This document shows positions 4,405 to 19,016 of a stretch of DNA of 20,264 nt, piece by piece. The stretch is from a virus: IMG/VR virus record IMGVR_UViG_3300007541_000324, positions 1 through 20,264 of that record, one strand, 5' to 3'. Made by a program: the position numbers and the translations under genes. The notes beneath the pieces are model-generated. The model worked only from the letters and a program-made list of their open reading frames with translations. It did not search any database and was not told the origin of the DNA. Position 1 is the stretch's first letter. Every line of letters starts with the position of its first letter.

Positions 4405-4755
4405 CTACGTCGCGTTTAAGGCTTCCATTTTAGCCCATATTTCATTTGCGGTTGCCGTAGGGTCAAAAGGCACCCACACGCCAGAATTTGGTATTGTTTC
4501 AGTAGGAGCCTCTTCCCATTCACCCCAATCTTCTCCATTAGTTTGTAAGTAATTCTGCAAATCAACTTTTGTAGCAAAAACAGAAAAATCACCGCTGGCA
4601 CCGTCTTTGGAGATACCTACATAATAAAAATTTTGTGGTGAAGGGTCACCTGAAGGAACGGCACAGGTTCCTATAACCTGATTCTCTCCCGTGTATAAAA
4701 ACTCAGGCTGTGTTCCATCTGCGTTCAAAGTGTACTTTATTACTTGATGTGGCAT
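4405..4755 (-). CDS. Hypothetical protein, small acidic
   Basis: The 116-residue product is acidic and Trp-containing (GEDWGEWEEAPTET, NSGVWVPFDP), with an early section that may form beta strands (PEFLYTGENQVIGTCAVPSG, NFYYVGISKDG). It has no signal peptide or membrane segment. The start ATG at 4755 lies inside the end of the glycosyltransferase gene, giving a 53-base overlap. It has a good GAGGTG motif about four bases upstream, and no later in-frame start would keep most of the protein. It sits between a glycosyltransferase and the nozzle-like gene and could be a small tail or chaperone protein. I do not recognise the family. Confidence 0.7.
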   Translation of the reverse strand: MPHQVIKYTLNADGTQPEFLYTGENQVIGTCAVPSGDPSPQNFYYVGISKDGASGDFSVFATKVDLQNYLQTNGEDWGEWEEAPTETIPNSGVWVPFDPTATANEIWAKMEALNAT

Positions 4756-5476
4756 TTTGCACCTCGTGCTGGTAAGCGTATTGTCCTGTGAATAAATATG
4801 CCCCCATATGCCCTAGTTGACACCACGGAGCGAGCCAAACTTCTCCACCCAACTCTCTATACGAATGACAGAAACTATAGTCTTCAGATAATAGTTGATT
4901 ATCTACATTTATTACTTTAAAAAAATCATATGTTTTATCTGGCTTTGCAACAGTCCCTGACCACTGCCGTTCTACATACCAACCAACATGAGGTTTTAAC
5001 TTTTCAAAAACGGCTCTTTTTATGAGCATAAAACCAGTGCCGATATGTTTAACTTGAAACGGCGTATTTGGGTCTTGCATAGAATGACCTTCTAGCTCAT
5101 TAACATTAAATATGCCTGTTAGTTTACTAAGGTCTGGATGATTACGAATTGCTCCTTCTTTTATGTCGGACCAATTGATTCCTTTCATTGGTACAGCCCC
5201 GCCTATGAGGTCTTTACCAGTTTTAATCATTTTAGCAATATCGTTCGGATTAAATTTTTGGTCTGCATCTATAAACATAAGATAGTCTGCATCTGTGTCC
5301 AAAAATATTTTTGCAATTTTGTTTCTGGCTCTTTGCACTAGGCTCTCGTTTCCAACAAAGACATTCGTTAATTTTATCCTATTAACCAAACACGCTTCTT
5401 GAAAATTAAGTATAGATTCCGTGTATTCTGAGCAACACACCCCTCCATACATAGGAGTACCGACGACTATGTGCAT
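4703..5476 (-). CDS. Glycosyltransferase, GT-A fold with DxD motif
   Basis: This 257-residue protein shows the marks of a nucleotide-sugar-dependent GT-A glycosyltransferase. The N-terminal strand MHIVVGTPMYGG is followed by SLVQRARNKIAKIFL (about 45-59) and the metal-binding DxD motif in FIDADQKF (D70, D72). IGTGFMLIKRAVFEKL (145-160) matches the acceptor region typical of the fold. SEDYSF (E198, D199) fits the catalytic-base segment and LGHMGAYLF supplies a His (223) likely to bind the metal. The start ATG overlaps the previous stop (TAATG) behind AGAGG. No signal or membrane segment is seen, so it should act in the host cytoplasm. Lying among fibre and tail genes, it may glycosylate a virion protein or modify a host surface precursor. 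The donor and acceptor cannot be read from the sequence. Confidence 0.85.
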   Translation of the reverse strand: MHIVVGTPMYGGVCCSEYTESILNFQEACLVNRIKLTNVFVGNESLVQRARNKIAKIFLDTDADYLMFIDADQKFNPNDIAKMIKTGKDLIGGAVPMKGINWSDIKEGAIRNHPDLSKLTGIFNVNELEGHSMQDPNTPFQVKHIGTGFMLIKRAVFEKLKPHVGWYVERQWSGTVAKPDKTYDFFKVINVDNQLLSEDYSFCHSYRELGGEVWLAPWCQLGHMGAYLFTGQYAYQHEVQNATSSNKVHFERRWNTA

Positions 5477-8994: not shown

Positions 8995-9210
8995 TTAGAG
9001 GGACGCCTCGCCAGAAGCTGAAGGAACGCTCGTAGCGTATATCTTCATACTTTGCTTCAAGTTTAAGGTTTGTCCACAATCTGAGCAAGTGTCTGCTTCT
9101 AGCTCGCTCTCATCTAAATCGTAACCGCAGTTAAGACAGTACACCTCAATTTCGTGTTTACATACTATGGTTGAATCATCAACCTTTATAGCTTCATTCA
9201 ATTTTCTCAC
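8995..9210 (-). CDS. Small zinc-ribbon protein
   Basis: This is a 71-residue protein with two CxxC knuckles, C25-C28 (CLNCG) and C42-C45 (CSDCG), separated by 13 residues. That is the layout of a rubredoxin-like zinc ribbon. It starts with GTG at 9210, sharing GTGA with the previous stop. A strong AAGGAGA ribosome site seven bases upstream settles this start. It has no membrane segment. It sits between the repeat fibre and the tail fibre, so it could be a fibre-assembly or virion zinc protein. Zinc ribbons also occur in regulators, and the sequence alone does not decide the role. Confidence 0.8.
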   Translation of the reverse strand: MRKLNEAIKVDDSTIVCKHEIEVYCLNCGYDLDESELEADTCSDCGQTLNLKQSMKIYATSVPSASGEASL

Positions 9211-10307
9211 GCGGCGATCTCCTTCCAGACAGTAGATTGGCTAGGTGTGGTTTCATTCCAGACAGTAGATTGACTAGGTATAATCTTACTCCAAACTACA
9301 ACATCTCCTATGATGCCTGTCGCAGCCACTCCTATGGGATAAACCTTTGCTGTGCCTATTTGTGTTGTAGACCCAAGAGCAGTTGTGGCTTGCACCCCTG
9401 TGGGGAAAACATTCGCACCTGCTTCAACAGTAGCAGTACCTAATGCGGTGGTTCCTGATACCCCAGTAACATTTACGGTAGCACCAGCTTCTACTGAAGC
9501 TGTTCCTAACCCAGTAGTTCCTACTACACCAGTTGGGTAGACATAGGCTTCTGCAATGATTACATCACCGACAGCACCAGTAGCTGAGACGCCTGTCGGA
9601 TAGACGCCTACACCTTCAGCGACACTGGCTGTGCCTAGCCCAGTAGTTCCAGATACACCTGTAGCCGCAACAATAGCGTCACCTGTTATTGTCGGACTTC
9701 CAAGCTCTCCTGTAGCCGCGTTTCCAAGGACTTCGACAACACCGTCAGAATTAGCAGCCACATTACCAAGAGCAGTGGTAGCCTCAAGCCCAGTGGGGAA
9801 TATGCTTACTGCCTCTTGGACAGTTACTGAGCCTATCTGTCCAGAGGCTTGGAGTCCTAAAGAAGTACCCCAAGAACGCTGACCCCAAAAACCTCGACCC
9901 CATCCATCGAAACGAACAGTCTCGTTCCATACAGCGTAATTAGCTACGCCTGTAGCAGAAACACCAGAGACACTAACTATCGTATCACCACCAACAGATT
10001 CTTCACCCAATGCCGATGTTCCAGCAACACCTGTCACAGAAACAGTAGCTACGCCTGTAACAGTTGGGCTTCCTAAACTTGTTGTTCCAGCAACACCTGT
10101 AGGACTGATATTTGCTGGTGCTATTGTGGTTGTAGTTCCTAAAGAGGAAGTTAAACCAAAACCAGTAACAGAAACATCAGCGTTAGCCTGAACAGTTATA
10201 GAACCTAGGGACGTAGTCGCCTCTAGAGAAGAACTACCCTCTCCGTAAGCCTGATTGCCCCATCCGTCTCTACCCCATCCTTGGAAGCTAACGGTTACAT
10301 CAGTCAT
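9207..10307 (-). CDS. Repeat-built fibre/structural protein
   Basis: The 366-residue protein is built from about twelve imperfect repeats of roughly 22 residues. Their consensus runs TTxLGTxxVxxGxxVxPTGVxG, with alternating small and beta-branched residues, as expected for a beta-helical or fibrous rod. Two Trp-Gly motifs interrupt it, GWGRDGWGNQAYGEG at 10-24 and GWGRGFWGQRSWG at 135-147. The C-terminus ends in two copies of PSQSTVWNETT-type units of 11 residues. It has no Cys, signal peptide or membrane segment. Start ATG 10307 is six bases after the previous stop and lacks a well-placed Shine-Dalgarno sequence, so expression may depend on coupling. Similar repeats in two other proteins here suggest a shared virion building block. 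Confidence 0.8.
   Translation of the reverse strand: MTDVTVSFQGWGRDGWGNQAYGEGSSSLEATTSLGSITVQANADVSVTGFGLTSSLGTTTTIAPANISPTGVAGTTSLGSPTVTGVATVSVTGVAGTSALGEESVGGDTIVSVSGVSATGVANYAVWNETVRFDGWGRGFWGQRSWGTSLGLQASGQIGSVTVQEAVSIFPTGLEATTALGNVAANSDGVVEVLGNAATGELGSPTITGDAIVAATGVSGTTGLGTASVAEGVGVYPTGVSATGAVGDVIIAEAYVYPTGVVGTTGLGTASVEAGATVNVTGVSGTTALGTATVEAGANVFPTGVQATTALGSTTQIGTAKVYPIGVAATGIIGDVVVWSKIIPSQSTVWNETTPSQSTVWKEIAA
9223..9279 (-). repeat. Tandem 33-base repeat at the 3' end of the fibre gene
   Basis: Two copies of ttccagacagtagattg(g/a)ctaggt on the plus strand start at 9223 and 9256. They match at 23 of 24 bases. The 33-base period encodes an 11-residue unit (PSQSTVWNETT / PSQSTVWKE), so the repeat keeps the frame. 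The near identity suggests recent duplication. Confidence 0.85.
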
Positions 10308-10773: not shown

Positions 10774-11073
10774 TCACAGTTTGCTAATAATACGAGCCAT
10801 ATCGCTATGACCCTGTTTGACTAACATGGCAGACAAAGTAGTTCTGTCCGATCTGATAGCCTCCTTCATGTAGAATAAGATCAGTTGTCTGATCCGCTCC
10901 TTATAAACCAACGCTTGCGCCTTAACCATTTCATCCGCTGTATCACTAACTTCAATTAACTTGTCTAAAGCTCTTTCAGTAAGTTCTTCAGGGGTAAAAC
11001 CCCTGTTAGAAGTTGTATATACCTTCACGTCAGGAGTTTCTGATGTAGCTTGTGCTTGTACGCCATTCATCAT
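10774..11073 (-). CDS. Hypothetical protein, helical
   Basis: The 99-residue product starts MMNGVQAQATSETPDVKVY and continues TTSNRGFTPEELTERALDKL, after which it is almost entirely helical and charged (KAQALVYKERIRQLILFYMK, then AIRSDRTTLSAMLVKQGH). No Cys pairs, signal or membrane segments are visible. Its ATG shares ATGA with the stop of the connector-like gene before it. The nearest GGAG is about 12 bases away, so translation may depend on coupling. The family appears, from memory, in marine phage structural operons without a known role. Position next to a connector-like gene suggests an assembly or virion protein. Confidence 0.7.
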   Translation of the reverse strand: MMNGVQAQATSETPDVKVYTTSNRGFTPEELTERALDKLIEVSDTADEMVKAQALVYKERIRQLILFYMKEAIRSDRTTLSAMLVKQGHSDMARIISKL

Positions 11074-11723
11074 GATACTGCGGGTCTCCTAACTAATCCT
11101 GTTCTATATGCGTCTGTAATTTCTTTGGCTTCTCCGAAGTTCTTCAACGTTACCACCGCTTCCATAAACCTTTGGTTGTAGTTCTGCATCAAATCTTGTT
11201 CACCTTTCATATAAGTGTAGGCTTCAATCAAACTACCATACAACATAGCGATTTCAGCATTTTCACTGAGCCAAGTCGTACCACTGTCAGATCCAGCAGT
11301 GAGACTAACAGGACGATAAAAGTAATGAAGCTCAACAGCAAGATTAGCATTAGGAGTAGGGCCAAGTATGAAATACCCTGTATCAAAGAGCGCGTAATAT
11401 TTTGGATTTCCTGTAACCGTTGCATCAGGGTTGTATTCCTGTACATAGTTCACGTCTTTATAGTCTAAAAAGACTACATCCCCATCCGAATTTGTGTAAG
11501 AAAGGGAAAACGGAGCTAAAAAATCGCTTGGACAAACTAAATATTTATCATTTGCGGTTGTGTTCGCAGTAGCATTTTTACGGAAAAATGTAAGCTGTAC
11601 ATTTTTGAGAATACGCTCTTCTGCCGCACGGATAAACAAAGGTAGATTATTTACAAAACTAGTCTCAGAGTTCTGAGTGTAGTCTTGTATTGCCGTTTTA
11701 AGTTGATCGTATGTAAAGCTCAT
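11070..11723 (-). CDS. Putative head-tail connector/adaptor-like protein
   Basis: This 217-residue protein begins MSFTYDQLKTAIQDYTQNSE, then carries FIRAAEERILKNVQLTFFRK, CPSDFLAPFSLSY, GNPKYYALFDTGYFILGPTP and ELHYFYRPVSLT. It ends with a helical AMLYGSLIEAYTYMKGEQD region. A helical bundle around a small beta domain suits connector or adaptor subunits that assemble as rings under the portal. Its ATG shares ATGA with the end of the zinc-ribbon/cupredoxin gene. No strong Shine-Dalgarno motif precedes it. The alternative is a minor tail protein. I rate the connector role as a reasonable inference from sequence texture and position, not a certain assignment. Confidence 0.6.
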   Translation of the reverse strand: MSFTYDQLKTAIQDYTQNSETSFVNNLPLFIRAAEERILKNVQLTFFRKNATANTTANDKYLVCPSDFLAPFSLSYTNSDGDVVFLDYKDVNYVQEYNPDATVTGNPKYYALFDTGYFILGPTPNANLAVELHYFYRPVSLTAGSDSGTTWLSENAEIAMLYGSLIEAYTYMKGEQDLMQNYNQRFMEAVVTLKNFGEAKEITDAYRTGLVRRPAVS

Positions 11724-12442
11724 GCTGAAACCGTATTGACTTTATAACCCATTCCACTATGCACAGAACAATATGTATATAGCGTTGGAGCACCTATTGC
11801 TACATCAATTTGCGTGTAAGCACCCGCTGATCCCGGAGTCCCATTGTAGGTAACACCTGTCGTGTATTCTACTCCACCGCCATGTGTGCCATCGGGCGTT
11901 GTGGAAAAACGCAAAGGATGGCCTGAATTTGAGCTATCCGATTGATCATATCGATATATCAAACCTTCTGTTACATCTCGTCCCAAAAATCCCGGTTGCG
12001 CTCCGTCTTGATAATAAACGTTGCCCCCTCCCGGATTGGATACTGTGATTGAATACGTTGCTTCAATCGGAACTACACTAACCGTTCCTACACTCGTAGT
12101 TCCTGAAACTCCTGTAGGCTCGACAGTCACACTAGTGGCTACTTGAACTTGAACAGTCACGCTACCAACGCATCCTACACCCGTCACAGGACCTAGGGAT
12201 TCGTTTTCAACAACAGGGATGCCGACATAAACATTGTATGGCTCTACCCTGTCTGGTCTTGGATTGTATAGAGCTTGTGGGTCAGCTGGTACAGTTATAG
12301 GTTCTAATTGAGGGTGCTTTGGCTCGTAGCACTCTTGGCAAACCTTAAAACCAGTCCATTCAACTTGCATAGACAAATAAGGGTATTGCTGACCACAACG
12401 GTCGCAAATAGCATTTGACTGTACCCCTATTGCGTATGACAT
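11720..12442 (-). CDS. Three-part virion protein: zinc ribbon, fibre repeats, cupredoxin-like domain
   Basis: The 240-residue protein has an N-terminal zinc ribbon with C13-C16 (CDRCG) and C35-C38 (CQECY). It then has KHPQLEPITVPADPQALYNP and two repeat-like units at about 84-123 (GPVTGVGCVGSVTV, PTGVSGTTSVGTVSV) like those of the fibre at 9207-10307. Residues about 128-238 look like a small beta-sandwich, with GHPLRFS (H175) and YTYCSVHSGMGYKV (C225, H228, M231). The spacing His ... Cys-x2-His-x2-Met resembles the type 1 copper site of cupredoxins, where Cys-x2-His-x4-Met is usual in plastocyanin. Copper binding is an inference. The ATG at 12442 overlaps the previous stop (TAATG). Context is the connector-to-fibre region. 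Confidence 0.75.
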   Translation of the reverse strand: MSYAIGVQSNAICDRCGQQYPYLSMQVEWTGFKVCQECYEPKHPQLEPITVPADPQALYNPRPDRVEPYNVYVGIPVVENESLGPVTGVGCVGSVTVQVQVATSVTVEPTGVSGTTSVGTVSVVPIEATYSITVSNPGGGNVYYQDGAQPGFLGRDVTEGLIYRYDQSDSSNSGHPLRFSTTPDGTHGGGVEYTTGVTYNGTPGSAGAYTQIDVAIGAPTLYTYCSVHSGMGYKVNTVSA

Positions 12443-13122
12443 TACACAACCCTATAAAAATTTTGATTTGGCGTTAATTTTAAGTTAGCTCTATCTCTGT
12501 CTTCAGATGCCGCCCTTTCAAACTCCTCTTCATAAATAGCTTTGAGCATTTGAGTTCTATCTGGTGCTCTTTTCAAACTAATATAGTAAGCCAAGCCAGC
12601 GGCCAAACAAGGATAAAAACGGAAAGGCATTTCCAAAGTATTCTGTGCTGTATCCGCATCATCCATTCTTACCAATCTGTCATAAACCAGCGTATATGCT
12701 TGGTCTGGAGTAGGCCACACTTCAACTGTTGGGTTAATAGTGCGGTCAACATAAAATTCTGTAGGTCTAGCTTGTGTTAATTTACTAGGTATATTTAGAA
12801 ACTCTTGGCGACTAACTCTAGAAATAATAATATCTTGTTGATTACTAGCACCTGCGTTAGTTCTTATTACCGCTGACAAAATGTCAATTGTGTCTGCACC
12901 CAAGCTATACGAGGCAGTACCTTGAACTAAAGAAACAGTTGACTGCTCTATTGTCCAACGATTTAACCCCCTATTAGCCCAATCAGCCAGCATTAAATTC
13001 AGGCTACGACGAGCAGATTTTAGATCATAACCAGTTTTAGGCTCTAACCCACAACGCTCAAACGCTTCCTCAATGTACTCAGCTACATCAAGCTCAAAAT
13101 CTTTGGAACCAGAAACAGTCAT
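12442..13122 (-). CDS. Putative head-tail adaptor (P22 gp4-like or T7 gp11-like)
   Basis: This 226-residue protein shows a helical N-terminus (AEYIEEAFERCGLEPKTGYD, then LKSARRSLNLMLADWANRG) and the phrase LNRWTIEQSTVSLVQGTASY. A beta section follows (SLGADTIDILSAVIR, RPTEFYVDRTINPTVEVWPT), then a C-terminal helical domain (MPFRFYPCLAAGLAYYISLK). From memory this combination marks adaptor or tail-tube proteins of podoviruses that join the portal to the tail. The start ATG lies behind GAGGA with a suitable spacer and ten bases after the previous stop. It sits upstream of the connector-like and nozzle-like genes, as expected for a tail-completion set. Which of the two named models it follows cannot be decided here. 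Confidence 0.65.
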   Translation of the reverse strand: MTVSGSKDFELDVAEYIEEAFERCGLEPKTGYDLKSARRSLNLMLADWANRGLNRWTIEQSTVSLVQGTASYSLGADTIDILSAVIRTNAGASNQQDIIISRVSRQEFLNIPSKLTQARPTEFYVDRTINPTVEVWPTPDQAYTLVYDRLVRMDDADTAQNTLEMPFRFYPCLAAGLAYYISLKRAPDRTQMLKAIYEEEFERAASEDRDRANLKLTPNQNFYRVV

Positions 13123-18521: not shown

Positions 18522-19016
18522 TTACAGGTGCAGGATATCATCAGGGCTACTAATGCGAGCAATGATCTCATCATCATTAAGAATTCTCACTTCGCCACCC
18601 TCTATCTTGAAACGGCTACCAGCATACCGCCCGAAAATAACCCAGTCGCCTTCTTTACACCAAGGCTCTATGTCATCTCCAAACTTATCTAAATCTTTGT
18701 ATGCCAGAGGTCCGACTTTGAGAACATATCCACAAACTGTGGCAACACGTTCTTTTTCTTGAAACTCACTGGTTAAAATGATCCCACCATCTGTTTTCTT
18801 TTTACCCTGATAAGGCAATATCAAAACACGCCAACCTGTTGGGGTAGGCAATCTTTCCATCGCACTTTCTGGGATTTTAGTTGGGTCTAAAACAACCTCA
18901 TTAGCATCTACATAGGCTTCTGCTAATAAACCGTTATCTTCTGGTGGTGGGGGTGGTGCTTTTTTGTTGGCTCTTTCTCTAGCTATATGCTCTGGTACAA
19001 ATAATGAATCACTCAT
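18522..19016 (-). CDS. groES: Phage GroES-type co-chaperonin with an N-terminal extension
   Basis: The 164-residue protein carries a GroES/Cpn10 core from about residue 57: TPTGWRVLILPYQGKKKTDG, then the mobile-loop end GGIIL at 77-81 and the typical VGYVLKVGP-like strand (here CGYVLKVGPL). GDWVIFGRYAGSRFKIEGGE and ILNDDEIIARI complete the core. The family is usually about 95 residues. Here about 55 residues precede the core, including a run of five prolines, and a short tail follows. It should work with host GroEL to fold virion proteins, as T4 gp31 does for the coat protein. It lies directly before the scaffold-like and capsid genes. Its ATG overlaps the previous gene by eight bases, and a weak AAAGAAG precedes it. 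Confidence 0.85.
   Translation of the reverse strand: MSDSLFVPEHIARERANKKAPPPPPEDNGLLAEAYVDANEVVLDPTKIPESAMERLPTPTGWRVLILPYQGKKKTDGGIILTSEFQEKERVATVCGYVLKVGPLAYKDLDKFGDDIEPWCKEGDWVIFGRYAGSRFKIEGGEVRILNDDEIIARISSPDDILHL

Follow-up and report, generated by a model that had tools for sequence, protein, structure and literature searches.

A predicted cupredoxin domain with a type 1 copper ligand set on a putative tail protein of a marine phage

The stretch of viral DNA analyzed here, 20,264 nucleotides long and covering positions 1 to 20,264 of the IMG/VR record IMGVR_UViG_3300007541_000324, is referred to below as the window. It contains a gene whose product joins a cysteine-rich N-terminus and a repeat region to a C-terminal beta domain with the motif C-x2-H-x2-M. 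This raises the question of whether a phage tail protein can carry a cupredoxin, and what a copper site would do on a virion. No report of a cupredoxin, blue copper, plastocyanin-like or copper-binding domain in phage virions was found in the open PMC literature, and within that literature the cupredoxin appears to be unreported as a phage virion module.

The gene, its anchor and its stalk

The coding sequence is located on the minus strand and reads from 12442 to 11720, starting with ATG and encoding 240 amino acids: a zinc-ribbon anchor, a repeat stalk and a C-terminal cupredoxin domain, as seen in the full-length model. The sequence-only reading had placed an open reading frame at 11720-12442, and the frame was found there; a plus-strand reading of the same interval was rejected, as it contains many stops. 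The gene lies between two genes of the SU10-adaptor type on the minus strand, one upstream (12442..13122, PF24175, E 1.2e-15) and one downstream (11070..11723, PF24175, E 1.5e-23), which are present in 126 and 142 of the 168 related loci, respectively. This order of neighbors recurs across the related viral contigs, and the gene is therefore assigned to the head-tail module. The annotations of homologues name tail fibre, baseplate or virion structural proteins. Judged by the position between adaptor-type genes and by these annotations, the product is probably a virion protein. A search for mass-spectrometry detection of any carrier protein found none, and none of the S-CREM2 virion proteins gp123, gp84 and gp85, for which virion proteomics exist, contains such a domain.

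Several other minus-strand genes of the window can be mentioned here. A glycosyltransferase-2-like gene (4703-5476; PF00535, E 2e-4, slightly under the cut-off; phrog_1574) lies within the structural module, and a GroES-type co-chaperonin (18522-19016; Cpn10, E 3.5e-13) is encoded near the head genes. Directly after the repeat-fibre gene, 8995-9210 encodes a protein of 71 aa in which two CxxC pairs and weak zinc-ribbon matches were seen.

The N-terminal domain comprises residues 9-45 (12308..12418, minus strand), with the cysteines arranged as C13-x2-C16 and C35-x2-C38. By its two CxxC knuckles and its small predicted beta fold (AlphaFold2 pLDDT 90-95) it is a zinc ribbon, as had been proposed from the sequence, with the zinc itself predicted; the Pfam DZR match is weak (E 0.16). 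Among the relatives (L001-L174), 18 keep all four cysteines; in 38 the whole set has given way to S-S-G-E, and in 19 to C-T-G-V. Since the replacement is joint, the anchor fold would exist both with and without zinc. The anchor is followed by the stalk or linker of residues 60-125 (12068..12265, minus strand). The "fibre repeats" noticed earlier correspond to two copies of the pattern TGVx(2-5)VGxVxV, at residues 87 and 110, in a region of low pLDDT that is disordered in the single-chain model. The same repeat pattern is matched eight times in the fibre-like product of the gene at 9207-10307, and in some relatives the stalk consists of Pro-Ser-Pro-Thr instead of the TGV repeats.

The C-terminal domain and its relation to cupredoxins

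The C-terminal domain covers residues 126-240 (11723..12067, minus strand). The AlphaFold2 model of this region, built from an alignment of 79 sequences, is all-beta with nine strands and has a pLDDT of 96.6 and a pTM of 0.90. In the model, the first histidine stands directly before a strand, the cysteine closes the last strand but one, and the second histidine and the methionine fall in the loop that leads to the final strand; this predicted placement along the strands is the cupredoxin order. As far as the strand order shows, the outcome that the sequence-only reading had named as a refutation, a predicted fold that keeps the four residues far from one another, did not arise. A Foldseek search of the PDB returned the cupredoxin domain of nitrite reductase as its top match, and 27 of the best 50 matches, counted by their listed names, are cupredoxin-fold proteins (nitrite reductase, rusticyanin, multicopper oxidases, plastocyanin). 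Most of the others have Ig-like folds or are the SO1698 peptidase. The fold comparison alone is insufficient, because no PDB match reached an E-value below 1e-3 and the TM-scores lie at 0.5-0.6. Fold matches in BFVD include three small proteins from Pithovirus and Marseillevirus records that are labelled "beta-sandwich proteins" (A0A481Z6J5, A0A481Z7Q7, A0A481YVH3; E ~1e-5 to 1e-4).

The putative ligands are H175 in the sequence GHPL (11918..11920), C225 (11768..11770), H228 (11759..11761) and M231 (11750..11752), all on the minus strand; these positions, as well as those of the four ribbon cysteines, had been given correctly in the sequence-only reading. All four are conserved. H175 aligns with the cupredoxin histidine, C225 and H228 are aligned in the profile comparisons, and the axial M231 is replaced by leucine in four distinct relatives (L030, L042, L050 and L133, the last of which also carries Asp in place of the first histidine). 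As read from the residues, the type 1 copper ligand set His, Cys, His, Met is complete and in the standard order. C-x2-H-x2-M is also the spacing of amicyanin. The motif occurs once in the 40,524 six-frame residues of the window. Chance does not account for it, since H, C, H and M are all retained in 216 of the 224 distinct homologous domains. The others are three domains with H-C-H-L, one with D-C-H-L, two with (Y/N)-S-Q-M and two truncated repeats.

Loss of the ligands in close relatives had been named beforehand as evidence that would count against the cupredoxin-like site, and it was found in only two distinct sequences, the (Y/N)-S-Q-M relatives L024 and L049. These share about 83 per cent identity with the window domain, and their reading frame and gene order are intact despite the loss. 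In both, H, C and H disappear jointly across 50 residues, which supports one shared site. The SSAQ loop common to the two sequences may reflect a single event that removed the cysteine and the second histidine, with the first histidine changed to different residues.

Searched as a single sequence against Pfam, NCBIfam and the PDB, the window protein gave nothing useful, and only profiles succeeded. The window domain taken alone matches no Pfam model, PF00127 (Copper-bind) included, and it is therefore filed as a cupredoxin relative and not as a Copper-bind member. True bacterial cupredoxins were retrieved with PF00127 and compared with the window family by hhalign, which gave E 3.3e-7 for one family profile (A1) and 2.1e-5 for a second (A2), with the ligands aligned. 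The A1 score of 41.8 compares with 17.7 for the reversed profile, and the highest score among 60 column shuffles is likewise 17.7. With the four ligands masked, the A1 score falls to 22.4; the direct link to cupredoxins therefore depends to a large extent on the ligand motif. Against the PDB, the A1 profile found no cupredoxin at E < 1 (pseudoazurin, E 1.8), and phmmer searches with the L447 and L074 domains found no match. An invented generic cupredoxin-like query matched no phage.

The connection becomes stronger through a second type of phage domain, collected from gp9-type proteins and tail spikes in a profile (A5). In profile comparisons of the hhalign type, the window family matches this second type with E 2.2e-18, and the second type matches the true cupredoxins with E 3.7e-14. 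With the ligands masked, both links of the chain persist (E 3e-12 and E 3.8e-8, respectively), and the reversed and shuffled controls score far lower. In the PDB, the A5 profile retrieves nitrite reductase (E 8e-5), amicyanin (1e-4), rusticyanin (7e-4) and also plastocyanin, with cupredoxins making up nearly the whole list. The domain of phage P-HM1 alone finds plastocyanin 1b3i (E 7e-5); the family HMM built without second-type sequences matches the P-HM1 domain only at E 0.009. The PF00127 gathering cut-off of 21.2 bits is passed by two phage domains, the second domain of L074 taken alone (22.1 bits) and the P-SSM2 gp298 tail spike (23.3 bits). The proposal of a cupredoxin-like C-terminal beta domain is thus borne out for fold, homology and ligand set by AlphaFold2, Foldseek and the profile chains, and the domain is almost certainly a genuine, distant cupredoxin relative with the cupredoxin fold and the type 1 ligand set. 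The binding of copper itself is, in our judgement, likely.

Spread of the module and its possible role

The domain is widespread, matching at least 554 stretches in IMG/VR. A search with the anchor alone (L387-L546) showed that 134 of 158 complete genes have no cupredoxin domain, most of them being about 100-113 amino acids long. One such gene, L389, was examined over its whole length and is flanked by the same pair of adaptor genes. Because most proteins with the same anchor at the same locus are without it, the domain is an optional, mobile module. The idea that the short relatives reach the domain through a frameshift was rejected, since the reading frame that follows them is that of the adaptor or of a distinct gp9-type protein. 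Twelve contigs have, directly downstream, a separate protein of about 216 amino acids ending in the second-type domain, and all five of these that were scanned begin with T4_gp9_10_N.

The second-type domain matches about 330 phage records, nearly all of cyanophages, and the 25 listed among them are mostly baseplate wedge-fibre connectors. The gp9-type connector of T4-like cyanophages ends in a domain that has the full H...C-x2-H-x2-M arrangement, e.g., GAHPFRI...YYQCTIHSQMNGTITV; examples are L382:1472-2704, L384:1457-2677 and L549:1640-2821. In Prochlorococcus phage P-SSM2, the tail spike gp298 (L383:305-3589) carries an S74 chaperone domain together with a second-type Copper-bind domain, and in P-HM1 the second-type domain is combined with a subtilase. 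Outside phages, the first-type domain is found in marine bacteria (L175-L181; SAR86, Porticoccaceae and others), in large proteins with cadherin repeats, subtilase or RTX repeats. In the Porticoccaceae protein (L176) it adjoins an imelysin domain in an EfeO-like order; in EfeO, a cupredoxin domain precedes the M75 domain.

The explanation we favor, and consider on balance the likely one, is that the product is a small protein which serves for display on the head-tail or tail assembly in a marine phage and carries a copper-stabilized cupredoxin. In this model, the zinc-ribbon N-terminus would anchor the protein to the virion and would be followed by a flexible repeat stalk, with the cupredoxin domain as the exposed tip. 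Free copper is almost absent from the bacterial cytosol, so the site would probably take up copper outside it, either in the periplasm or once the virion has reached seawater. The metal would make the tip rigid, and the tip might then touch the host surface or decorate the tail like an Ig-like domain. A display role is suggested by the occurrence of the anchor without the domain in most genes at the same locus, by the same kind of domain ending T4_gp9_10_N proteins, and by its presence on an S74 tail spike. For the display or adhesion role of the tip as such, we see about even chances.

Part of this evidence could also be read as a beta-sandwich that binds carbohydrate or a receptor, with copper being incidental. 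The terminal position on tail-type proteins fits such a function, and 12 of the 79 members weakly match CBM_4_9 (best E 4.5e-4). The one CBM match examined in detail, however, is below the curated cut-off and ends before the ligand loop, and carbohydrate binding leaves the conservation of the ligands unexplained. This possibility is tentative and rather unlikely as a full account, and it is compatible with the copper-tip explanation rather than exclusive of it.

Somewhat less probable, and unlikely in our view, is a cupredoxin fold in which the four residues bind another metal or form a metal-free packed core, with stability as their sole role. Many surface beta-sandwiches are metal-free, and the (Y/N)SQM relatives, full-length, in frame and syntenic without the ligands, indicate that the fold manages without metal. 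The retention of all four ligands in 216 of the 224 distinct domains speaks against this, as does a lone cysteine that has no disulfide partner. Moreover, the substitution of the axial methionine alone by leucine, together with the joint loss of H, C and H, is what is expected of a type 1 site.

Beyond the display of a copper-stabilized tip, a more far-reaching role can be imagined, in which the copper-loaded tail or baseplate cupredoxin would dock on host surface proteins that handle copper; virions would then act as copper ligands in seawater, and their copper state would affect adsorption. We regard this as improbable. With equally low confidence, such docking could be likened, for copper, to the iron "Trojan horse" that has been proposed, or seen as mimicry of host cupredoxins.

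The option of a redox or electron-transfer function, also raised in the sequence-only reading, gained no supporting evidence. A blue copper protein that moves electrons during adsorption, e.g., to or from periplasmic or membrane carriers of the host, would agree with the complete type 1 ligand set, and plastocyanin genes are carried by cyanophages for host metabolism. Plastocyanin is mentioned in a review on phage-carried host-metabolism genes (PMC5083919). However, no partner protein, signal peptide or redox neighbor was seen in the window, and the carriers of the module are structural proteins. A free virion has neither a partner nor an electron path, which is why electron transfer is not put forward here, and this reading is very improbable. 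Finally, a chance motif in a domain unrelated to cupredoxins would agree with the lack of any cupredoxin model match for the window sequence alone, but it is contradicted by the profile chains with their reversed, shuffled and ligand-masked controls and by the two phage domains above the Copper-bind cut-off, and it is hardly credible.

If the site holds copper, the blue-copper domain would be a frequent structural element in the tails of ocean phages and virions would be copper carriers, which would offer a concrete handle on the function of unnamed tail domains. The assignment also gives a name to a domain in hundreds of genes labelled "hypothetical" or "virion structural". A direct test is possible with a single recombinant domain that is small and well folded, for which the natural relatives without ligands are ready controls.

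Comparison with known copper and phage tail proteins

The closest known systems are amicyanin, plastocyanin and pseudoazurin (PF00127; TIGR02656/02657), which share the beta-sandwich, the histidine before a strand, and the Cys-His-Met group at or after the end of the penultimate strand; with amicyanin, the C-x2-H-x2-M spacing is also shared. The phage domain, with its predicted copper, differs from them in that its first histidine is followed by Pro and not by Asn, and in that a long conserved Gly/Thr-rich insert separates this histidine from the cysteine. It is also fused to a presumed virion anchor and a stalk, whereas the known proteins are free periplasmic electron carriers. Foldseek and profile matches are likewise shared with the type 1 domains of multicopper oxidases and copper nitrite reductases. 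Axial Leu variants and the His-Pro pair occur in laccase-type sites, as in the phage domains. In contrast to these enzymes, the phage protein has a single such domain, and no type 2 or type 3 copper ligands were seen in it.

Among phage proteins, phrog_28581 matches the anchor and stalk of the window protein, and phrog_27200, phrog_30742, phrog_693 and phrog_708 match its C-terminal domain. Their labels are unknown function, tail fibre and baseplate wedge, and none is described as copper or cupredoxin. The gp9/gp10 baseplate wedge-fibre connectors of T4-like cyanophages bear a related type 1 domain at the C-terminus, but their anchor is T4_gp9_10_N and not a zinc ribbon. Metal sites of another kind, the nearest theme in the literature searched, are known from the HxH tail fibres of T4 (gp37) and Alteromonas phage R22Y, which bind iron and for which a relevance to ocean metals has been proposed (PMC11705849). 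Both systems would place a metal site on the phage tail, with copper predicted in the present case; the HxH site holds octahedral iron on pairs of histidines in a trimeric fibre and has no cupredoxin site (PMC11705849).
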